From positions 2,046,001 to 2,110,000 of the forward strand of contig CP019454.1 of NCBI GenBank assembly GCA_002951815.1: 64,000 bases of DNA. The letters are read 5' to 3'. Under the pieces are notes generated by a model. The model was not told where the DNA came from. It did not search any database and saw nothing but the letters and a program-made list of their open reading frames with translations. This stretch comes from Sulfobacillus thermotolerans (GTDB lineage Bacteria; Bacillota; Sulfobacillia; Sulfobacillales; Sulfobacillaceae). Below, piece by piece: positions 35,914 to 48,533 of this stretch. The position numbers and the translations under genes are program-made. Position 1 is the stretch's first letter. The number at the start of each line of letters is the position of its first letter.

Positions 35914-37677
35914 TTATGGCGTAGGAGAGGTTGTTCCGGTCCACGTTTGCCAATGCACTAACTCTTTGACGGCGAGGGCATCCGCCCACCGAACTGTTTT
36001 CAGTTGTGGTTCTGGCGGGAAATGATCAGTATAGCCGACACACAGGACGGCAACGGGTTGGATACCAGGGGGAATCTCAAGAACTTGGCGCAGGTGACGC
36101 GGTTCAAATAAACTTACCCAGCCCACGGCGACACCTTCTGCGCGGGCGGCAAGCCAAAGGTTTTGCACCGCACATACGGCAGAATAGAGAGTCGTTTCCT
36201 CCATCGTGTGGCGGCCAAGCACTTCGGGTCCTCCGCGTTCGAGGTTGGCGGTAATCACTAGGACAATGGGTGCCTCGAGTAATCCTTCTAATTTCAGCTG
36301 TAAGAACTGTTGCGCGCGGTCGTCATCAAAGTACAGCTTTTGAACTTGTCGTTCGCGATCTGCTAAGCTTTTTAATTGTTGTTTGATGGCGGGATCTGTA
36401 ATTAGAATGAAGTCCCATGGCTGTGAAAAGCCGACAGATGGCGCATGATGGGCCGCCCACAACAAGCGCTCTAAAATCTCGGGAGGCACGGGGTCGGAAC
36501 GAAACTGCCGGATATCGCGGCGGCTTTCAATAGTCCGGTAAACGGCTGCACGCTCAGGCCAGGAAAACTGATGGCGTGTGATGGCCCCAGTCGAGGCATG
36601 ACTTGAGCTGTTAGCCAGCTCGGCTTCTTCAAATGTGGCCATTTCGCTAGCGATGGCGCAGGCTTGACGCAGCAGGGGCAAAGCTAATGCGGCGCCGCTG
36701 CCCTCCCCTAAGCGCAAGCCCCATTCCAACAGAGGATTTAGGCCTAAAGCGCTTAGTACCCGGCCATGGCCCGGTTCTGCGGATTGGTGGGAGGCGACAA
36801 GATAGTCGACCGAGGCGGGGGCTAAACGCACCGCGAGCAAGGCCGCAACACCGGTGAGATAGCCATCCAAAATGGTTACGATATGGTGCTGGGCTGCTCC
36901 CAAAATGGTTCCGACCATGGCCGCGACTTCAAAGCCACCGAGTCGTGTGAGGACGTCAAAAGGCTCTAAATCCGGCCGATGATGTCGCGTCAGTGCGGCT
37001 TCAACTGTTCGGATTTTGTGTTCCCAACGGTCTTGGTCAATGCCTGTGCCGTGTCCCGTCATGGTGCGGGGCGATTCATTTAATAACGCGGAGGCTAAGG
37101 CGGCGGCAATGGTCGTATTGCCAATGCCCACTTCGCCTAATAAAATCGCACGGTAGCCTTGGGCATGGGCGGCTTCTGCGCGTTGAATGCCTATAGTAAG
37201 CGCCATCAGGCATTCATCGGGCGTCATGGCGGACTCTTCCACAAAATTGCGGGTGCCGGGCCGAATTTTTTGAGAGACAACGATCTTATCACGATCGTCA
37301 TTGGTCCATTCGCCGTTCACGCCGACGTCAATGACTTCCACAACACTCCCAGCATGACGCGCCAAAACGGAAATGGCGGCAAATTGGTGTTGATAGGCGC
37401 TGAGCATTTGGGCTGTTACGCTTGCCGGATATTGTGATACCCCGAGCGATGCGACGCCGTGATCGCCTGCGTAAATGAGCGTAATCGACGGATCGACAGC
37501 AGGTCTGAGGGTGCGCTCGGCGCTCGCGAGCTGACACGCCAAGCGTTCTAATCGGCCTAAACTCCCAGGAGGTTTGATTAAGGCATCTAAATGATTTTGC
37601 ATTTCGCGGTGAATCAATCGGTCCTTAGGCAAAATGTTGTTCAGTACTTGATCGAGGTCAGTTAAAGTTGTTGCCAT
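35914..37677 (-). CDS. cobT: CobT-BluB fusion: DMB phosphoribosyltransferase plus DMB synthase
   Basis: A 587-residue two-domain protein for lower-ligand assembly of cobalamin. Residues about 1-350 are CobT (IKPPGSLGRLE, YAGDHGV, GEVGIGNTT, HQSAEPGH), with the catalytic Glu325 in LRLGEGSGAALALPL. Residues about 370-587 are a BluB nitroreductase-like domain (ESRRDIRQFRSDPVP, HHAPSVGFSQPWDF, GVAVGWVSLF), which makes 5,6-dimethylbenzimidazole from FMNH2 and oxygen. One chain thus makes DMB and turns it into alpha-ribazole phosphate. AAGGAG precedes the ATG at 37677; the frame is open further upstream. Expression should be controlled by the cobalamin riboswitch just upstream. Confidence 0.92.
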   Translation of the reverse strand: MATTLTDLDQVLNNILPKDRLIHREMQNHLDALIKPPGSLGRLERLACQLASAERTLRPAVDPSITLIYAGDHGVASLGVSQYPASVTAQMLSAYQHQFAAISVLARHAGSVVEVIDVGVNGEWTNDDRDKIVVSQKIRPGTRNFVEESAMTPDECLMALTIGIQRAEAAHAQGYRAILLGEVGIGNTTIAAALASALLNESPRTMTGHGTGIDQDRWEHKIRTVEAALTRHHRPDLEPFDVLTRLGGFEVAAMVGTILGAAQHHIVTILDGYLTGVAALLAVRLAPASVDYLVASHQSAEPGHGRVLSALGLNPLLEWGLRLGEGSGAALALPLLRQACAIASEMATFEEAELANSSSHASTGAITRHQFSWPERAAVYRTIESRRDIRQFRSDPVPPEILERLLWAAHHAPSVGFSQPWDFILITDPAIKQQLKSLADRERQVQKLYFDDDRAQQFLQLKLEGLLEAPIVLVITANLERGGPEVLGRHTMEETTLYSAVCAVQNLWLAARAEGVAVGWVSLFEPRHLRQVLEIPPGIQPVAVLCVGYTDHFPPEPQLKTVRWADALAVKELVHWQTWTGTTSPTP

Positions 37678-37733
37678 CGTTGTTCTCTCCTTAGTCACCG
37701 TAAGTTCTAGAACGAGTTGGGCCAAGATGGGGT

Positions 37734-38120: not shown

Positions 38121-39718
38121 TTATGGTCCCTCTTGTTTTAGCAAGTCCATGATCCGTGCATAATCATGGGCGCCTTGAATAGCTTGTGCAACCAGCTTCT
38201 CGTACTCCTGGTGGCGAGATAGGGCTGCCTTTATGGGCTGAACAGAAGGAAGAGGCACGCTTAAGGAATAAATGCCCATAGCCGCAAACAAAATGGCCCA
38301 CGGGACATCGGCCGCTAATCCTCCACAAACACCTAATGGCAACTGAACGTCGCGTGCACTCGCTGCAATGGCGTGGATGAAGCGGAGCAGGGCGAGACCA
38401 CTATGAAAAGAAGCGTCCGATTCCCTATCGGTGGCAAAGAAGTATTGCGACAAGTCGTTCGTGCCTAATGAGGCAAAATGGGCGCCATGTAAGGCAAGTT
38501 CGGGAACTAAAAATCCTAAGGACGGCACCTCGATCATGACGCCCAGGCTAACGTCATTGGCCGGGGATGATGACACCGTGGAAGCCACGCGCTTCGCCTG
38601 ATCGCGACAAAAATCCCAGTCCTCGGTGGTTGTTACCATCGGAAACATAATGGACATGGGAGCGACTTCGGAGGCCCGGTAAAGGGCGGTTAATTGGTCC
38701 TGAAACAAGGTAGGATGGGTCCGGTATAACCGCATGCCGCGTGTGCCCAAGGCAGGATTCGGCTCAGAGGGCATGTCTAAAAAGGCCAGCGGTTTATCGG
38801 CTCCAATGTCAAAAGTTCGGAATATCACCGGTCCTGAACTCTTCCGAAGAACATCACGGTATATCTCTTCTTGTTCGGCGATGGATAAAAGACGGCCGGC
38901 TTGTTCTAATAGCATTTCCGTGCGAAAAAGTCCTACCCCATCTGCGCCAACCGCCCGGGTTCTTTCGGCTTCGACGAGGGATGCGATGTTGGCGCGCACC
39001 TCAACCGTTCGCCCACTTGGGAGGGTGATGGGGTTTGTATGACCTAGCAATCTCTGCTCAGTGGGGCTTGAAGCAGGAGCTTGGGCCTCGGTATCGACCA
39101 TGCCATTGGCGCCGTCGATGCTGACAACTTGTCCTTCATGCATGTCACGAACGGCGGCTTTGTCCATAACAACTACAGGGATGCCAAGATTTTGAGCAAT
39201 GAGGGCGGCGTGCATCAGGGGGCTGCCTTGCGTGCAAATCACCCCAGCGACCGGGATTTCGGCCCATTTCAAAATGTTTTGGACCAAAAGGGTCTCACAG
39301 AGCACAATAGAGCCTTGCGGGCAGGCATCTTCTTGAACGGGGCCAACGCATTTTGCCATAACTGACCCACTTCGCGAATATCCGCCGCACGTTGGGCGAG
39401 GTACGGGTCGTCAACTTGCAGCAAGGTGTTGGCAAATTCGTCGCAAGCCTGAGCGATGGCACTATACGCGCTAACACCGCTGCTGATGAGCGCTTCGACG
39501 CGGGCAAGGAGTTCGGGATCTTCTAACATGGATTTTTGGGCTAACAAGATATCCGCCCCGGTAGAAACGTGCTGGGCCTGCGTCTCTAATTGCAAGGCAG
39601 CGCTCTCCCGGGCTTGTTGCACGTTGGGGGATGTGCTAGGCGCTTCTGAGGTGGCTTGTACGATATGAATAGGGCCAGTGGTGCTCCCGGGAGATAACAC
39701 ACGACAGGAATAGTGCAT
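38121..39718 (-). pseudogene. ptsI: PTS enzyme I (phosphoenolpyruvate-protein phosphotransferase), frameshifted
   Basis: Two overlapping frames together make an EI-like protein of about 530 residues. The first (start 39718, MHYSCRVLSPGSTTGP) covers the HPr-binding N-domain up to DDPYLAQRAADIREVGQLW. The second (from about 39340 to 38121) continues with GSIVLCETLLVQN and the phospho-His region TQGSPLMHAALIAQN. It then has the PEP-binding barrel: VGLFRTEMLL, FRTFDIGADKPL, NPALGTRGMR, GVMIEVPSLGF, LGTNDLSQY and LPLGVCGGLA. The switch lies in the linker at about 39300-39350, and no slippery heptamer is evident. EI starts the PEP to HPr to DhaM phosphate relay needed by the DhaKLM genes nearby. 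If the shift is real, this EI is dead or needs ribosomal frameshifting. Confidence 0.8.
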
Positions 39719-39791: not shown

Positions 39792-39820
39792 TTTACAATG
39801 CTTTCACTATGATTCATAAT
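39792..39820 (+). promoter_or_regulatory. glpABC promoter
   Basis: TTTACA (39792-39797), a 17-bp spacer and CATAAT (39815-39820) precede a leader of about 110 nt that contains the terminator-like hairpin before glpA. Confidence 0.6.
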
Positions 39821-39882
39821 ATTTTATGAAGTCAATAGCGAGTCGAAAATTTCACGGTATTTGTCTGAGCAGAGATAAAGAG

Positions 39883-39920
39883 AGCTCGGCGACACCCCTC
39901 AGGTGTCGTCGGGCTTTTTT
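39883..39920 (+). terminator. Leader terminator upstream of glpA, probable GlpP antitermination target
   Basis: A 14-bp stem (39883-39896 with 39902-39915, two G-U pairs) with a 5-nt loop is followed by six T residues. It ends only 16 nt before the glpA ATG, downstream of the glpA promoter. In Bacillus, GlpP with glycerol-3-phosphate prevents termination at such a hairpin in the glpD leader; a glpP gene lies in this operon. Confidence 0.8.
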
Positions 39921-39936
39921 AATGGGAGGTAGGAAA

Positions 39937-41460
39937 ATGGTCGTGGTGATAGGGGCGGGCGCTACTGGATTGGGGGTGGCAAGGGACCTGGCCTTGCGGG
40001 GCGTGAAGGTCACGGTGGTGGACCAGTGGGAACCAGGCTTTGGGACATCGGGGCGTTTTCATGGTCTCTTGCACAGTGGAGCGCGCTACGTTGTGACCGA
40101 TCCGACCGCTGCTGAAGATTGTTACCGTGAAAATACGTTGTTGCGGGCGGTGGCTCCGGACGCGATTGAGCAGACGGGTGGGATATTTGTTCGTTCGGAG
40201 GATGATGATCCCGGGTTCGAACAGGCGTGGCTGAAGGGCTGTGATCGTGCCGGCATTCCCGTGACGGCATTGGATCCTCGCGCCGTGCGTCAGCGGTATC
40301 CGGACTTGACAACACGGGTGGCGTCAGCGTATTGGGTGCCCGATGGGGTCTTGGAAGGCTTTCATCTCTTGCAAATGCTGGCTAAAGACGTGCTTGCCCA
40401 TGACGGGACATTATTGAGCAAACACCGCGTTACCGCAATACAGACCGTGAACGGTCGGGTGACAAGCGTGAGTGCCCAAGGTCCGAATGGGGAAGTCGAG
40501 GTAGGGTGTGACGCCGTTGTCAACGCGGCCGGCCCTTGGGCCGGAGCCGTCGCCGACCTGTTTGAAGATCCGATCCCGATGCATCTCTCGTATGGATTAA
40601 TGATTTTGTTTGCGCACCGCAAGTTTCCGGTGGTGGTGAATCGTCTAAAATCCCCGGGGGATGGGGACATTTTTGTCCCCCATCAGCATGTAACGATCTT
40701 GGGGACGACCGATGTTGCGCAAGATTCTCCTATCGCTCCAGATATTCAAGCCTCTGAGGTCTTGCGTCTTATGGACCTGGGACGTGAGTTGGTGCCCGGT
40801 TTAGATTCTTGGCGCGTGCTGCGTGCCTTTACCGGCGTGCGTCCGCTTTATGATGGACAGGGGCACGCCGCCACGTCACGCGAAGTCAGCCGCGACTTTA
40901 AAGTGATTGATCATCAGCGGCGCAAGGGTCCGGCAGGCAGTTTTTCGGTTGTCGGAGGCAAATGGACAACATTTCGTTTAATGGCCGAGCGCACGGCTGA
41001 TATCGTGACGCAGTATCTAGGTATATCGGCTCCTTGTGTGACCGCCCAGGTGCCGTTAACGCTGCATCCAGTGACATCTTTTTCGGCTTCTGAGCCTTAC
41101 CTATGCGAATGTGAAAAAGTTTCCGCGTCGCAATTGACAGCCATTGATGGATCGTTGTCCGAATGGCGTACGGCAACATGGTTTGCGATGGGGCCGTGTC
41201 AAGGGACGTTCTGTGCTCACCGCGTCACCGCGCTGCATCATGCGCTGTTTCCCAGTGAAGATTCAGGTGCGGCACTACAGGACTTGCGCGCCGAGCGCAC
41301 CAAAGGCATGCTTCCCGTGTTGTGGGGAGCCAATGCGCGTGAATACGCACTACAGCAGGCCGTCCGCTTCCAAACGCTCGCGGAAGGGGACCCGCAGTGG
41401 GCGGGCAACTCACCAGGGCTGAAAAATTCATCGCCTAGCTCAGAAGGGGTGACGCTATGA
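39937..41460 (+). CDS. glpA: Glycerol-3-phosphate dehydrogenase subunit A (GlpA)
   Basis: A 507-residue FAD-dependent catalytic subunit oxidising sn-glycerol-3-phosphate to dihydroxyacetone phosphate. The N-terminal FAD fold is VVVIGAGATGLGVARDLALRG (cut here to its start), followed by GRFHGLLHSGARYVV, typical of GlpA/GlpD. The C-terminal part has CECEKVSASQL and GPCQGTFCAHR, the BFD-like cysteine cluster found in GlpA but not in GlpD. GGGAGGTAGG precedes the ATG at 39937. It overlaps glpB by 4 nt. The leader terminator implies control by GlpP and glycerol-3-phosphate. Confidence 0.92.
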   Translation: MVVVIGAGATGLGVARDLALRGVKVTVVDQWEPGFGTSGRFHGLLHSGARYVVTDPTAAEDCYRENTLLRAVAPDAIEQTGGIFVRSEDDDPGFEQAWLKGCDRAGIPVTALDPRAVRQRYPDLTTRVASAYWVPDGVLEGFHLLQMLAKDVLAHDGTLLSKHRVTAIQTVNGRVTSVSAQGPNGEVEVGCDAVVNAAGPWAGAVADLFEDPIPMHLSYGLMILFAHRKFPVVVNRLKSPGDGDIFVPHQHVTILGTTDVAQDSPIAPDIQASEVLRLMDLGRELVPGLDSWRVLRAFTGVRPLYDGQGHAATSREVSRDFKVIDHQRRKGPAGSFSVVGGKWTTFRLMAERTADIVTQYLGISAPCVTAQVPLTLHPVTSFSASEPYLCECEKVSASQLTAIDGSLSEWRTATWFAMGPCQGTFCAHRVTALHHALFPSEDSGAALQDLRAERTKGMLPVLWGANAREYALQQAVRFQTLAEGDPQWAGNSPGLKNSSPSSEGVTL

Positions 41461-42641
41461 GCGCGATAACCATTATTGGGCAAGGGCCTGCTGCGCTATT
41501 AGCCGCCTCTTTTATCCAGGAAGTTCAGCAAGACTGTGTGATCGTGGCAGATTCGGAAGGCAGTTTGCCTTTGTGGAGCGGTAGCTTTGATTTTCATGCT
41601 CCAAGTGACGATATCAGCAACCCGTGGTCTTTACTCGACCGTCAACCGCTGATGCTGCCCGCTGAGACATGGGCTTTTCTCTGGGAAAGCTTGGTGGGTT
41701 TTGAGCGAGCGGCCGGCATTCCTGTTGCGGCCGATATCCCGTCACATAATTGGTGGACGATAACGTGCACCGGTAAGTCAAAATCGGTGTTTGTTGTGCC
41801 ACAGTGGCAATACGTTCAAAAAACCTTTCTGCCCGTTTGGTTTATCGGATTTCAAGGCTTGGCGGATTCCATGGCGGATTTTCAATGCCACACCTATCAG
41901 CAGCAAACGGGCGTTGACGCAGGGTTTCATGTGTTGCCTAACCCGACCCCTTGGACGCCTTCTTGGGGGCCGATTCGGTGGGCTAGCTACATGGATACCG
42001 ATGAGGGACTAAGTTGGTTATTGTCAGAAATCCAGAAGGTGGCCCCAGAAATTCCTAAAACCTGGCCGATTTTGCTGCCTCAAGTGATAGGGCGCAGGAG
42101 GGCTGAGCACAACTTGCAAGCTCTGACGACGGCGTTGGGTCAGATGGTGTTTGAATACCCCCTCGTCACGCCGTCTTTAGGGGGCATGCGCATCCGCGAC
42201 CGTTGGGTGTGGTATCTCAAAAAACAAGGCGTGCCGTTTTTAACGGGGCGCGCCATCTCAGTCGAGAAGGGGTGGGTCACTTTGGCGGATGGGCGCCAGT
42301 GGCACAGTGACCATGTGATTGTCGCCACGGGCGGCATTCTCGGAGGTGGGCTTGAGGTGATGGTGGACGGACGCCTGCGAGATCCTCTTCGAGACACCGT
42401 GGTGGGAAGAATGCCACCCGGTCGTGCCATTGATCTGTACTCCTGGGGACAACCGGCCGACTACGGCACGCCGGAGATGACCGCATGCGGGAGTCAATGT
42501 GGGGGGTGGGATCCCAACCAAGATGGAAATGGGGGCGCCATGATTCTGGCAACAGTGTGGCAGAGTTTATGCCGGACCGGGATTTTCTCCAACCTTGGAT
42601 CTTGTAACTCCGAAAGGAGCGTCACGCATGTGGGAAAATGA
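41457..42641 (+). CDS. glpB: Glycerol-3-phosphate dehydrogenase subunit B (GlpB)
   Basis: A 394-residue subunit with a flavoprotein-like N-terminus (ITIIGQGPAALLAASFIQEV) and the GlpB-type features SLPLWSGSFDFHA, ALTTALGQMVFEYPLVTPSL and HVIVATGGILGGGL. In GlpABC it links the catalytic GlpA to the iron-sulfur subunit. It starts within the glpA stop (ATGA) and its last 14 nt overlap the start of glpC, so the three are tightly coupled. Confidence 0.88.
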   Translation: MSAITIIGQGPAALLAASFIQEVQQDCVIVADSEGSLPLWSGSFDFHAPSDDISNPWSLLDRQPLMLPAETWAFLWESLVGFERAAGIPVAADIPSHNWWTITCTGKSKSVFVVPQWQYVQKTFLPVWFIGFQGLADSMADFQCHTYQQQTGVDAGFHVLPNPTPWTPSWGPIRWASYMDTDEGLSWLLSEIQKVAPEIPKTWPILLPQVIGRRRAEHNLQALTTALGQMVFEYPLVTPSLGGMRIRDRWVWYLKKQGVPFLTGRAISVEKGWVTLADGRQWHSDHVIVATGGILGGGLEVMVDGRLRDPLRDTVVGRMPPGRAIDLYSWGQPADYGTPEMTACGSQCGGWDPNQDGNGGAMILATVWQSLCRTGIFSNLGSCNSERSVTHVGK

Positions 42642-43830
42642 TGATGCCTGCATCAAATGTTCCATCTGTATTAGTGTCTGTCCGGTCTATGGTCAGGACT
42701 TGGAGTTTCCCGGACCTAAGGCATTGGGGCCCGATTGGTTTCGAGCGTATCAAGCCAACCCGTTGACGGTACCCAGCGAGCACGTCGATGACTGCACATT
42801 TTGTCAGTTGTGTGAGGCATCGTGTCCGGTGCATGTGCCCATCGCACATCTTATCGCGCAACATAAGAGTCTTAAGAAGAAAACGTGGCGCATCAACTTG
42901 CGAGACCGTATTTTGGCGCATCCGCACTGGGTGGCGCGCTATCCGCGCCTAGCGAATGCCCCCAACTTTTTGGTCCGCCCCTTAGGCTTTGGCACACAAA
43001 GTCGCTGGCCTCGTCCCCAAAGACGTGTGGCCCCGTTGTCTTCCTCACCTCAAGCGGATACTAGGCAGATTGTGGGGTTGTTTGTAGACTGTTATAGCAG
43101 GGGGTTTGACCAAGATGTCCTGTCAGCGGCTCAAGCATTATTGGAGCTTTGGGGGTTTTCGGTGCGGCTGTTGCCGCACGCTAGTCATTGCTGCGGTGCC
43201 GCCGCTTATGCTGCCGGCCAACCTGAGGAAGGACAGCGCATTGCACACTCAACCTATGACGCCATGACCCCAGGTCTCACGGATCTCTCGCAGATTGTGA
43301 CACTCAATGCGACGTGTGACAGTACGCTCAGGGAAGAATGGCCGCTGTACTGGAATTTGTCGTTGCCTGTACCTGTCCTATCCTTTTCGGAATTCGCTTT
43401 AGATAAGGCGCCTGCATGGTTTTGGGATGCAATGCATAAGGGGATGACAGCACGCCAGGAACAGGGGGAAACCACGTCTTGGATTCATACCACGTGCCGA
43501 AGCCGTGTGTCGCGTGGGGACGGCATATTAGAACAACTTGCCGACAAGGCGGGCTTAGCTGCCATTCAACCATTGAATTTGGCCTGTTGCGGAGCGGGCG
43601 GATCCTATGCGTTCAAAGAGGAGCATGAAAAAACGGCTCATGCCTTGGGAGCGGCGGCGCTTGAGCAGGTCACAGAGACCCATGATCGGATTATCGTCGA
43701 TAGCGGAACGTGTGCGTTGCATCTCACGCAGATTACAGGAGCATTGGCGAAACATCCCGCCTACTGGCTCTATCAACGCTTTTTGTCACTGACACAAAGG
43801 AGTGGGGACATTGCCTCTCAAGAAAAGTGA
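42628..43830 (+). CDS. glpC: Glycerol-3-phosphate dehydrogenase subunit C (GlpC), Fe-S membrane anchor
   Basis: A 400-residue protein with two ferredoxin-type 4Fe-4S motifs at the N-terminus (CIKCSICISVCPVYG and CTFCQLCEASCPVHVP). Two CCG domains follow, whose cysteine-rich signatures are HASHCCGAAAY and NLACCGAGGSYAFK. It passes electrons from GlpAB to the quinone pool. The ATG at 42628 has AAAGGAG upstream and lies inside the end of glpB. It overlaps the start of glpP by 20 nt. Confidence 0.92.
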   Translation: MWENDDACIKCSICISVCPVYGQDLEFPGPKALGPDWFRAYQANPLTVPSEHVDDCTFCQLCEASCPVHVPIAHLIAQHKSLKKKTWRINLRDRILAHPHWVARYPRLANAPNFLVRPLGFGTQSRWPRPQRRVAPLSSSPQADTRQIVGLFVDCYSRGFDQDVLSAAQALLELWGFSVRLLPHASHCCGAAAYAAGQPEEGQRIAHSTYDAMTPGLTDLSQIVTLNATCDSTLREEWPLYWNLSLPVPVLSFSEFALDKAPAWFWDAMHKGMTARQEQGETTSWIHTTCRSRVSRGDGILEQLADKAGLAAIQPLNLACCGAGGSYAFKEEHEKTAHALGAAALEQVTETHDRIIVDSGTCALHLTQITGALAKHPAYWLYQRFLSLTQRSGDIASQEK

Positions 43831-44425
43831 TATGCCTGTGATCATTCAGGCCATTCGAGATCCCAATCAATGGCAGGACCTATCTCCATCCAGTCCCTGC
43901 TGGGTCTTCATTCTCGGGGGGACAATTGACAGTGTCGCAGAAAGTGTGGCGCGGTTGCAGCGCTGGGGTTGCAAAGTCTTTGTGCATGTCGATATGGTTA
44001 AGGGGCTCAATGGGGATTTTGAAGGGATTCGCTTTTTTCAAGAGTTTGCGGCGCCTGACGGTATTATCACGACGCATCCTTATACGATTACGCATGCGAA
44101 AAAGCTGGGCTTGGCCGCCATCCAAAGAATTTTTTTACTAGATAGCCAATCGGTCGAGTCTGGCATTCAACAAATCGCGCATGTCGATGCCGATGCCGTG
44201 GAAGTGCTGCCGGGATTGTTGCCCGTCCTCATTCGCTATCTGTGCCAGCGCATCGCTAAGCCTTTGATAGCCGGAGGCCTTATTACGACGACTGAACATG
44301 TGGCCGGTGCCTTAAACGCTGGCGCTATCAGTGTGTCGACCAGCAGCCAGCGCCTGTGGCATCAATCATGGGACCGGGCGTCTCTGACAGCGCCCCATCA
44401 GTCCAATCAATATCAGGAAGGATGA
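43811..44425 (+). CDS. glpP: Glycerol-3-phosphate-responsive antiterminator (GlpP)
   Basis: About 204 residues, a TIM-barrel-like RNA-binding regulator. Family landmarks are FVHVDMVKGLNGDFEGI, DGIITTHPYTITHAKKLG, IQRIFLLDSQSVESG, VEVLPGLLPVLI, IAGGLITTTEHVAGAL and the end ISVSTSSQRLW. In Bacillus it binds glycerol-3-phosphate and lets RNA polymerase pass a leader terminator. Such a terminator stands before glpA here. The TTG at 43811 has AGGAG 8 nt upstream; an ATG at 43832 has none. It overlaps glpC, so it is made with the operon it probably regulates. Confidence 0.9.
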   Translation: MPLKKSDMPVIIQAIRDPNQWQDLSPSSPCWVFILGGTIDSVAESVARLQRWGCKVFVHVDMVKGLNGDFEGIRFFQEFAAPDGIITTHPYTITHAKKLGLAAIQRIFLLDSQSVESGIQQIAHVDADAVEVLPGLLPVLIRYLCQRIAKPLIAGGLITTTEHVAGALNAGAISVSTSSQRLWHQSWDRASLTAPHQSNQYQEG

Positions 44426-44433
44426 CCAGAGAT

Positions 44434-44691
44434 ATGATTACGCGTTCTTATGTGATTGCCGACCCCCAAGGATTACATGCCCGGCCGGCCGCGCAGTTTA
44501 TTCAGGCTATGGCGCTATGCCCGGAAGCAGTGCAAGTCACCTTTGGAGAAAAGCACGCTAACGGCAAAAGTATTCTGAATGTCTTGGCTCTTGGAGTACG
44601 GGCAGGTGATGCAATCGTTGTACACTATCAGACAGACGATGAAGCGATTGTAAAGCGGTGCGAGGAAGCGCTAAAGCCTTTATTGTCATAA
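44434..44691 (+). CDS. ptsH: HPr phosphocarrier protein
   Basis: An 85-residue HPr, normal length. His15 in DPQGLHARPAAQF is the PEP-dependent phosphorylation site, and Ser46 in NGKSILNVLALG is at the place phosphorylated by HPr kinase in Gram-positives. The ATG at 44434 gives the standard start, with GGAAGG about 11 nt upstream. It lies just after glpP. In this neighbourhood, without any sugar EII, it most likely passes phosphate from EI to DhaM. The EI gene 5 kb away is frameshifted. Confidence 0.92.
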   Translation: MITRSYVIADPQGLHARPAAQFIQAMALCPEAVQVTFGEKHANGKSILNVLALGVRAGDAIVVHYQTDDEAIVKRCEEALKPLLS

Positions 44692-44802
44692 AAGGACAAA
44701 GGAACGTCTAAGGGCGTTCCTTGTGAATAGAAGACGTAAAAGGTTCCGTTTGATATAAATTTACTGAATTATACGGGTAATCAATCTAAAACATGACGTT
44801 GT

Positions 44803-44958
44803 GTAGATGCCGCTAGGCCGCCGGGACCCTTTGGCTACTGGTGGGTTCCGATATTAGGGCCATTCGTGGGGGCGGTTATCGGTGTGGTGGTATACAAATA
44901 CTTCATTGAATTGACGCTGGCGAAGCGGCAAATGACCTCAAAGAGGCTACGGGATTAG
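44803..44958 (+). pseudogene. glpF: C-terminal remnant of a glycerol facilitator gene (glpF)
   Basis: About 45 codons read GPFGYWWVPILGPFVGAVIG, then VVVYKYFIELTL, and end KRLRD with a TAG at 44956-44958. This is the last helix and tail of an aquaglyceroporin. The frame has a stop (TGA) shortly upstream and no NPA motifs, so the rest has been lost. It sits where glpF is expected, just before glpK. The remaining spacer from 44692 holds a 10-bp hairpin after the HPr gene, without a U run. Confidence 0.7.
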
Positions 44959-45000: not shown

Positions 45001-46509
45001 ATGTCTGAAGCGAACTATGTGTTAGCACTCGATCAAGGGACCACGAGCAGTCGTGCGATCTTATTTGACCAGCAGGGCTTGCCGGTCGCCACCGGCCAAC
45101 AGGAATTTAGGCAAATCTATCCCCAACCGGGGTGGGTAGAACATGATCCTGAAGAGATATGGCAATCGCAATGGCAATCTATTCAAGCGTGTCTTGCTCA
45201 AGCTAACGTGCCCATTGAGCAGATCAAGGCCATTGGCATTACCAATCAGAGGGAAACGACGGTGGTCTGGGACAGGCGGACAGGCAAAGCCATCTACAAT
45301 GCCATTGTATGGCAGTGTCGGCGTACAGCCGATGTCTGTGATAGGTTACGGGCGCAAGGGTTCACGTCAACCTTTCAAGAAAAAACCGGTTTGGTTTTGG
45401 ATGCGTATTTTTCGGGCACAAAAGTGGGATGGATTTTAGACCATGTGCCAGGAGCACGCCAAGACGCTGAAGCGGGGCACTTGGCCTTTGGGACAATTGA
45501 CAGCTGGTTGATTTACAAACTGACAGGTGGCAAGAAGCATGTCACGGATTATTCCAACGCATCAAGAACACTGCTTTACAATATTCATACGCTTCAGTGG
45601 GATGCCGACTTGCTCAATATTTTGCAAGTGCCGCAGAATATGTGCCCCACGGTTGTCGATTCCTCCGGAATTGCGGGATACACAGATACGCAATGGTTTG
45701 GGAACGAAATTCCCATTGCGGGCATTGCCGGGGATCAACAAGCCGCGCTCTTTGGCCAAGGCTGTTGGACTCCGGGTACGGCCAAAAACACCTATGGTAC
45801 CGGTTCGTTTTTGCTTATGAATACCGGCGAAGAACCTGTGCCTTCGCATCAAGGCCTTGTCACAACCATTGCATGGGGCATTAACGGGCAGGTGACGTAT
45901 GCGTTAGAAGGCTCAATTTTTATCACGGGTGCGGTCGTTCAGTGGCTGCGCGATGAATTACAATTAATTCATGACGCCAAAGAAACAGAAGATATCGCCT
46001 TGTCTGTGCCGGATACGGGTGGGGTCTACGTCGTCCCAGCATTTGTGGGATTAGGGGCCCCGTATTGGGATAGTTATGCGCGTGGTACGATTGTTGGTCT
46101 GACCCGTGGAAGCAACCGCGCGCATATTGTGCGCGCAGCCTTGGAGTCGATTGCTTATCAGAGCCGCGATGTATTGGAGGCGATGATGAAAGATTCTGGA
46201 CGGCAGATCAGTATGTTGCGTGTCGACGGGGGCGCTATCGCGAACAGGTTCTTGGCGCAATTTCAAGCAGATTTATTAAATTGCACGGTGGAACGGCCTC
46301 AAGTTACGGAAACAACGGCGATGGGAGCGGCATTTTTAGCAGGTCTTGCGACGGGTGTATGGCCGGGCTTTGAGCCTTTAGCCCAAGCATGGAAACGGGA
46401 TGCGCTGTTTTACCCCTCTATGGCGGAAGACACGCGGGATCATCTCTATCAACAGTGGCAGCGAGCGGTCGAGCGCGCGAAGAACTGGATTGAGCCCAGT
46501 GAGATGTAA
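45001..46509 (+). CDS. glpK: Glycerol kinase
   Basis: A 502-residue FGGY-family kinase making glycerol-3-phosphate from glycerol and [54 protein letters not shown] and [12 protein letters not shown] are all standard. In many Firmicutes a His near residue 232 is phosphorylated by P-HPr to activate the enzyme; here that stretch reads [14 protein letters not shown] and lacks the His, so PTS activation is unlikely. AAGGGGGAA precedes the ATG. It is the first intact gene of the glpK-dhaKLM group. Confidence 0.95.
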
Positions 46510-46523
46510 AGGAGGCGACGACA

Positions 46524-47534
46524 TTGAAAAAAATTATGAACAGTCCGGACACGTTAGTGGCAGAAGCGCTTGAGGGTCTTGTTATTTCCTTTCCCCAATA
46601 CCTTAAGCAAGTCCCTGGAACCCATGTGTTGACAAGGGCCACCCCGAAGCCAGCCGGACGCGTAGGGCTTGTCTCCGGCGGTGGGTCCGGCCATGAGCCG
46701 GCCCACGCCGGCTATGTGGGTTACGGCATGCTCGATGCCGCGGTAGCAGGGGAGGTATTTACGTCGCCGACCCCCGATCAAGTCTTGGAAGGCATTCGCG
46801 TGGCCGATCATGGGGCAGGAGTTTTGTTGGTGGTAAAAAATTATACGGGCGATGTCATGAATTTTGATATTGCGCGGGAACTAGCGGAAGCTGAGGGCAT
46901 TAAAGTGGCCACGGTAGTTGTGAACGACGATGTCGCCGTGGAAAACTCTTCGTTTACCACCGGCCGAAGGGGTATTGCGGGGACCATTTTTGTGCATAAA
47001 ATCGCCGGCGCTTTAGCAGAGCAAGGGGCATCGCTAGAGGAAGTAGAAGCGGTGGCTAACCGTGTGATTGCCCATGTCCGCTCTATGGGCTTTGCCCTTG
47101 AGCCGTGCACCGTGCCGCAAGCCGGTCAACCCACATTTACTTTGGCCGATGATGAAATCGAGATGGGCATTGGGATTCACGGAGAGCCAGGCATTGAGCG
47201 CCAGAAGTTGCGGTCAGCGCACGAATTAGCCCAGAGCTTGCTGGAGAAGATTGCCATGGACTTGCCGCTTAAGGCCGGAGATCACTTAGCTTGTATGGTC
47301 AACGGCATGGGAGCGACTCCGCTGTTGGAATTAGCGGCCTTGGCGCGAGAGGTGTCTTTATGGTCGAAAAGCCACGATATGCCACTAGATGTGGTGTGGA
47401 CCGGTGAGTTTATGACGTCATTGGAAATGGCCGGTGCTTCCCTAACGCTATTGCCCTTGGACGATACCTTAAGGACGTTGTTGGCAGCACCTTGCGACAC
47501 ACCGCAGCTGCGACAAGGAGTTCACCATGACTAA
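46524..47534 (+). CDS. dhaK: Dihydroxyacetone kinase subunit K (DhaK)
   Basis: A 336-residue substrate-binding subunit. It holds dihydroxyacetone through a hemiaminal bond to His219 in MGIGIHGEPG. SGGGSGHEPAHAGYVG near residue 51 and VKNYTGDVMNFDIA (105-118) line the site. The start is TTG with GGAGG 8 nt upstream, and the gene follows glpK after 14 nt. Its end overlaps dhaL by 8 nt. With DhaL and DhaM it forms the PEP-dependent (not ATP-dependent) kinase. Confidence 0.95.
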   Translation: MKKIMNSPDTLVAEALEGLVISFPQYLKQVPGTHVLTRATPKPAGRVGLVSGGGSGHEPAHAGYVGYGMLDAAVAGEVFTSPTPDQVLEGIRVADHGAGVLLVVKNYTGDVMNFDIARELAEAEGIKVATVVVNDDVAVENSSFTTGRRGIAGTIFVHKIAGALAEQGASLEEVEAVANRVIAHVRSMGFALEPCTVPQAGQPTFTLADDEIEMGIGIHGEPGIERQKLRSAHELAQSLLEKIAMDLPLKAGDHLACMVNGMGATPLLELAALAREVSLWSKSHDMPLDVVWTGEFMTSLEMAGASLTLLPLDDTLRTLLAAPCDTPQLRQGVHHD

Positions 47535-48150
47535 TACACAATTTCAACAACTCTGGGTTTGTTTTGGTCAGGCAGTGAGCAAACATAAAGACGAGTTGAA
47601 CCAATTGGATGCGGCGATCGGGGATGCGGATCACGGCACGAATTTAGACCGAGGTCTACAACAAGTTCTTGAAAAAATGCAGGCGGCGTCTCCTGCGACA
47701 TTGCAAGCCACCTGCAAGCTGGTCGCTATGACGCTCTTAAGCACGGTTGGCGGAGCATCCGGAGCCCTTTGGGGCTCCGGGCTTCTCGCGGCGGCCAAAG
47801 TGTTTCCAGACACTGACACATGTGACGACAAGACGCTCACACAGGCCATACAAGCGTTTGTTGATAGCATTGAGCAAAGGGGCAAGGCCGTGGTGGGTGA
47901 CAAGACCATGCTGGACGTATTCGTTCCGGCCCTGTCTTCGCTGGCACAAGACGCTGAACCTATAACCGTAGTTGTGCCTGAAATTGCCGCACACGCGAAA
48001 GAATGGGCCGAAGCCACGGCTTCGTTGCAGGCCAAAAAGGGGCGCGCGGCATATCTGGGCCCTCGCAGTGTGGGTCATATTGACCCAGGCGCCACGTCTT
48101 CAGCGCTTTGGTGGCAGTGTTTAGGGCGCATTATAGGAGGGTCTGTATGA
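47527..48150 (+). CDS. dhaL: Dihydroxyacetone kinase subunit L (DhaL)
   Basis: A 207-residue ADP-binding subunit with the metal-binding aspartates in LDAAIGDADHGTNLDRG and the nucleotide loop GGASGALWGSGLL. GDKTMLDVFVPA and the C-terminal AYLGPRSVGHIDPGATS are also typical. Bound ADP is re-phosphorylated by DhaM and the phosphate passed to dihydroxyacetone on DhaK. It overlaps dhaK by 8 nt and dhaM by 4 nt. Confidence 0.95.
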   Translation: MTNTQFQQLWVCFGQAVSKHKDELNQLDAAIGDADHGTNLDRGLQQVLEKMQAASPATLQATCKLVAMTLLSTVGGASGALWGSGLLAAAKVFPDTDTCDDKTLTQAIQAFVDSIEQRGKAVVGDKTMLDVFVPALSSLAQDAEPITVVVPEIAAHAKEWAEATASLQAKKGRAAYLGPRSVGHIDPGATSSALWWQCLGRIIGGSV

Positions 48151-48533
48151 CGGGCATGCTCTTGGTCTCTCATTCCAGAAAATTAGTGAACGGTTTGGCG
48201 GACTTAACACGAGAGCTAAGCGGTTCGGTGGTTCCAATAGAAACTGCAGGAGGTGAAGATAGTTTAGGCGTCACAGCGTCCATGGTAGCTAGCGGCATAA
48301 CGTCCTTGTTGGTGCAAGGAGTGGATGGCATTCTAATTTTGGGGGACCTTGGCAGTGCCTTTATTTCGGCAGAAACAGCCATTGACCTTGTATCAAGTCC
48401 AACGCCCGTGCATATTGTCGACGCGCCGCTCGTCGAAGGTACCATCGCGGCTGCCATGACGCTTAGCACCGGAGCTGCAATTCAAGATGCTATCAGCGCG
48501 GCAACAGAGGCTTATACGATCCGTAAAAGGTGA
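48147..48533 (+). CDS. dhaM: DhaM, EIIA-Man-like phosphotransfer subunit
   Basis: A 128-residue single-domain DhaM. The phosphorylated His9 lies in LLVSHSRKLVNGL, and GGEDSLGVTASMV and GILILGDLGSAFISAE follow the EIIA-Man fold. E. coli DhaM also carries HPr and EI-like domains; these are absent here, so separate HPr and EI proteins are needed. GGAGGG precedes the ATG at 48147, inside the dhaL stop region. Last gene of the glycerol block; a GC-rich hairpin (48724-48746) stands in the spacer before the convergent galactosidase gene. Confidence 0.9.
   Translation: MTGMLLVSHSRKLVNGLADLTRELSGSVVPIETAGGEDSLGVTASMVASGITSLLVQGVDGILILGDLGSAFISAETAIDLVSSPTPVHIVDAPLVEGTIAAAMTLSTGAAIQDAISAATEAYTIRKR

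Follow-up and report, generated by a model that had tools for sequence, protein, structure and literature searches.

The GlpP system of Bacillus subtilis (glpD, glpFK and glpTQ) is the closest described counterpart of the locus analyzed here. In B. subtilis, GlpP activates PglpD, PglpFK and PglpT, whose 5' UTRs each contain a GlpP site and a terminator, and the induction of PglpD is abolished without glpP (PMC9604022). A dual role of GlpP at the glpD leader, in antitermination and in mRNA stability, has been reported (Glatz 1996, as cited in PMC9604022 and PMC3997798). By its description, GlpP of Thermotoga maritima is similar, i.e., an RNA-binding regulator of the glycerol pathway including GlpABC and GlpF, although the GlpP regulon is stated to lie outside that comparative genomics study, which describes no leader (PMC3750489). 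In Paenibacillus cellulosilyticus (locus L043), a GAGA element and a terminator precede glpP, as they precede glpA in the present locus, which makes autoregulation likely there too; unlike the present locus, that of P. cellulosilyticus has a separate glpD leader, and no glpABC is seen in it. A literature search found no paper on GlpP leaders located upstream of glpABC.

The window analyzed here is a 64-kb stretch of the Sulfobacillus thermotolerans genome, and all positions refer to it (Table 1). The locus shares with B. subtilis a GlpP homolog of the PF04309 family and the arrangement of a promoter, a leader element and a terminator just 5' of the target gene, which encodes a glycerol-3-phosphate (G3P) dehydrogenase in both cases. 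However, the target here is glpABC rather than the single-subunit glpD, glpP occupies the fourth position in the operon that it is predicted to control, a single leader was found in the whole genome compared with three in B. subtilis, and genes for HPr and DhaKLM lie within the cluster.

Table 1. Elements of the glpA leader and genes of the downstream cluster, in window positions
Feature	Positions	Strand	Evidence
Promoter	39792..39820	+	TTTACA 39792-39797, 17-nt spacer, CATAAT 39815-39820; kept in relative G001
GAGA-TAAA-GAGA element, proposed GlpP binding site	39872..39883	+	top matrix score in window; present in relatives
Intrinsic terminator	39883..39920	+	14-bp stem 39883-39896 / 39902-39915, loop CCTCA, T6 at 39915-39920
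glpA, FAD subunit A of G3P dehydrogenase, divergent	39937..41460	+	DAO PF01266 1.4e-52; TIGR03377
glpB-like subunit, very divergent	41457..42641	+	NF003725 E 6.7e-13; synteny in relatives
glpC-like iron-sulfur/CCG subunit	42628..43830	+	PF02754, PF13183; NF008369 1.1e-54
glpP, predicted G3P-responsive antiterminator	43802..44425	+	PF04309 E 1.7e-55
HPr-family phosphocarrier	44434..44691	+	PF00381 8.2e-19
glpK, glycerol kinase, possible read-through target	45001..46509	+	TIGR01311 over cut-off
dhaK, dhaL, dhaM (PTS-type dihydroxyacetone kinase), possible read-through targets	46524..48533	+	TIGR02363, TIGR02365, TIGR02364

The identification of GlpP, already placed fourth in the cluster by the preliminary description, is supported by 187.6 bits against a PF04309 cut-off of 27 and by relatives in the PDB (3kts and 1vkf); its start codon is uncertain (43802, 43811 or 43832). 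The three-subunit GlpABC enzyme named in the same description fares less evenly: the best specific family matches of the three proteins are GlpA, GlpB and GlpC, and synteny agrees, but all three miss the NCBIfam equivalog cut-offs (482 vs 553 bits for GlpA, 48 vs 345 for GlpB and 186 vs 278 for GlpC), so that the enzyme is best called GlpABC-like, with the assignment resting on best match and synteny. Among the dha families, TIGR02363 and TIGR02365 exceed the cut-off, and TIGR02364 falls just under it.

Several other features of the region bear on the physiology of this cluster. A C-terminal remnant of glpF (44797-44955; sharing 70% identity with an intact glpF over 37 aa) lies between the HPr gene and glpK, and a decayed glpF remnant occupies the same place in relative G001; no aquaporin/MIP-family gene was found elsewhere in the genome. 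With glpF reduced to a remnant and its own leader gone, glpK and dhaKLM presumably rely on read-through from glpA or on an unrecognized promoter. The ptsI gene (38121-39718, minus strand) is split by a frameshift into two overlapping frames, an N-terminal part (39269-39718) and a C-terminal part (38121-39359), and is in a single frame in relatives G001 and G002. No other recognizable full enzyme I is encoded in the genome, so that DhaM may lack a working PTS donor, unless the frameshift is a sequencing error. A cobalamin riboswitch (RF00174, 37784-37960, minus strand, 109.8 bits), the only Rfam match in the window, is located just upstream of a long minus-strand ORF (35914-37725) resembling a cobT-nitroreductase fusion.

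The initially described order is confirmed, with the promoter followed by a hairpin of 14 bp and T6 and then by glpA, and this layout of a promoter and an intrinsic terminator directly 5' of a glycerol gene is kept in relatives. Promoter-like matches of such quality number 3 in the region compared with 6.0 in shuffled sequences, i.e., show no excess over chance; the promoter call is supported instead by comparison with the nearest relative, G001, in which the promoter forms a conserved block (ACTTTACAATG...CACTATGATTCATAATATTT) within diverging flanking sequence. The leader fold has z = -2.77, with 1 of 200 shuffles equally stable. A simple promoter/terminator scan of the region did not list this terminator, probably because the pairing continues through AGAG into the T run. 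In an alignment of ten leaders of relatives, 8 of the 13 stem pairs show changes on both sides, and stem covariation reaches 0.439 compared with 0.264 in shuffled alignments (0 of 500 shuffles attain the observed value); 89.8% of the cells in this alignment are paired, compared with 81.1% in shuffles, and sliding the partner strand by one to three columns reduces pairing to below 46%. Thus, the hairpin is maintained as a structure and the GAGA motif as a sequence. The glpA ATG is preceded by GGGAGG. The glpA reading frame is also open through the leader and the terminator back to an ATG at 39826 (39826-41460), so that gene callers may place the start 37 codons early; the relatives favor 39937.

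The element that provides the decisive evidence for GlpP control, and that is absent from the preliminary description, is a GAGA repeat immediately 5' of the hairpin, which reads GAGATAAAGAGA in the window. The foot of the terminator stem lies partly within the second GAGA copy, which can extend the pairing into the T run, and GAGA-N4/5-GAGA just 5' of the terminator is the sequence common to the glpA leaders of the relatives. The same element and a terminator precede glpF and glpD in Bacillaceae and glpP and glpD in Paenibacillus; with these orthologs standing in for the B. subtilis genes, the leader element is common to the established GlpP targets. When both strands of the window are scored with a 20-column weight matrix trained only on 26 leaders from Bacilli, the glpA leader comes out on top at 14.8 bits, and the runner-up, at 12.7 bits, lacks a terminator; in order-1 Markov sequence of the window composition, 14 positions in 6 Mb reach that score, an expectation of 3e-4 per leader. 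Thus, the initially proposed GlpP antitermination of glpABC gains support from a sequence shared with the Bacillaceae glpF and glpD leaders, and GAGA-N4-GAGA is presumably the GlpP contact site.

The comparison of leaders among relatives, suggested in the preliminary description, covers 41 genomes (that of the window and others of its genus, family, order and class), 17 of which encode GlpP above the cut-off. The element or a close variant, together with the hairpin, is present in all 14 GlpP-positive genomes, that of the window included, in which the region upstream of glpA is readable; the first GAGA is CAGA in G025 and G030, and the spacing is irregular in G035. The element is absent from all five GlpP-negative genomes that have glpA (G010, G013, G019, G021 and G033), in which glpK lies directly upstream of glpA. 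The one discordant case is G029, a fragmented draft (93% complete) with a leader and no detected glpP. A covariance model built from ten of the relatives' glpA leaders (R1) has a single match in the S. thermotolerans genome, the glpA leader (E 1.8e-12), and its strong matches in relatives are nearly all at glpA leaders. At E < 1e-3, R1 matches 14 of the 17 GlpP-positive and 1 of the 24 GlpP-negative genomes, where the Fisher probability of 2.6e-7 overstates independence, ten of the counted leaders having trained the model (a partly circular count) and the genomes being related. As far as R1 can see, the GlpP regulon of this genome would comprise one leader. A search for further targets with VAGANNNNGAGA followed by a T run gave 11 sites compared with 8 in the reversed control, and these candidates were not retained.

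In most of these relatives, glpP follows glpC, so that an autogenous layout is conserved; in G024, glpP lies apart from glpA and has its own upstream R1 match (E 9.7e-4), and in G011 and G025, glpF-glpK carries its own GAGA leader. Other arrangements were also encountered. In G006, of the same genus, the GAGA element and hairpin precede a glpD-like oxidase gene instead of glpA (L118 1345). In G035, GAGACAAGGAGA and a strong terminator are found before a gene near glpP that encodes an alpha/beta-hydrolase-like membrane protein (L040 362), a possible extra GlpP target, and in G008, GAGACATTGGAGA and a terminator precede a gene, divergent from glpA, for a HAD-type phosphatase-like protein (L029 3707, minus strand).

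Against 25 Bacilli loci, R1 yields 24 matches, 22 of them at a glpF or glpD leader, with the Bacillaceae matches individually weak (E 0.025 to 0.9). A joint covariance model of the Bacilli glpF and glpD leaders was dropped because the MAFFT alignment puts the stems out of register. Downstream of glpP in Streptomyces clavuligerus (L161 6430-6975), AGAGACCAGAGAACAGTAA...TTACTGTTCTCTTTTT has the layout seen in GlpP leaders, and it is possible that GlpP antitermination also operates in Actinomycetota.

These observations are best compatible with the glpA leader being a GlpP-responsive conditional terminator, to which a probability of about 0.87 is assigned. The sequence itself shows the promoter, the element, the conserved terminator, the homology and co-occurrence of GlpP, and the position of glpP. 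Transcription would start some 110 nt before glpA; when G3P is absent, the hairpin would form and most polymerases would halt before glpA. G3P-loaded GlpP is predicted to bind the emerging GAGA-N4-GAGA segment and to prevent hairpin closure, since the 5' arm of the terminator has the second GAGA at its base, so that the transcript would extend into glpABC-glpP-HPr and, plausibly, into glpK-dhaKLM. G3P binding, RNA binding and antitermination are ascribed to this GlpP by analogy with the B. subtilis protein; if it acts in the same way, the presence of glpP in the cluster implies positive feedback, in which leaky read-through together with G3P would yield more GlpP from the very transcript that GlpP frees, and this feedback might be important. 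Points that count against such a switch are the discordance of G029, the chance-level frequency of promoter matches, the partial circularity of the R1 count and the weakness of the Bacillaceae matches. Nevertheless, GlpP antitermination of glpABC, with autoregulation of GlpP, is well supported at the level of sequence.

Other explanations of the leader have to be considered. It is improbable that GlpP mainly stabilizes the leader mRNA or that the terminator is a fixed attenuator, with expression lowered irrespective of GlpP. The dual role reported for the B. subtilis protein lends some credence to the former, but a role in mRNA stability would supplement antitermination rather than replace it, whereas a fixed attenuator leaves unexplained the conservation of GAGA outside the stem and its absence in the relatives that lack GlpP. 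Still less probable is control independent of GlpP, in which the leader would act through an alternative RNA fold, be it a riboswitch or a classical antiterminator hairpin. Riboswitches do commonly share this layout, with roughly 110 nt of leader ending in a terminator; however, the Rfam scan of the window gave no family at gathering score for the glpA leader, even though it detected the cobalamin riboswitch, and upstream, only the promoter and the GAGA element are conserved. Moreover, no upstream strand competes consistently for the 5' arm in nine leaders (duplex p 0.07 to 0.96), a result more in keeping with an RNA bound by a protein than with a riboswitch.

The least probable alternative, by a small degree, is one already raised in the preliminary description, namely, that a plus-strand transcript from upstream is terminated here and that glpA starts downstream of the terminator. 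The T run ends only 17 nt before the glpA start, and the position of the transcription start is a prediction, both of which would be compatible with this scenario. However, the gene upstream of the leader, ptsI, is divergent and lies on the minus strand, so that the terminator could not mark the end of any plus-strand gene; the interval from 39920 to 39937 is too short for a promoter; and the conserved promoter block sits 5' of the terminator. The conditional terminator under GlpP control thus remains the preferred reading.

Antitermination by GlpP is itself already known; what differs in the predicted system is glpABC, instead of glpD, as the target and the autogenous wiring. A broader proposal, with about even odds of being correct, is that the GlpP target is GAGA-N3/5-GAGA over the terminator foot, that this target is shared across phyla (in Bacilli, in Sulfobacillia as the class of the S. 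thermotolerans genome and, apparently, in Streptomyces) and matches no Rfam family, and that here it has been reduced to one leader, which drives the glycerol pathway together with its own regulator as a minimal self-amplifying G3P switch. Most of what is known about GlpP antitermination comes from B. subtilis; a defined element would make GlpP regulons readable from sequence. Control by GlpP appears to be tied to a reaction, the oxidation of G3P, and not to a particular enzyme family, and the glpA leader together with glpP would constitute a compact self-amplifying switch that is open to testing.
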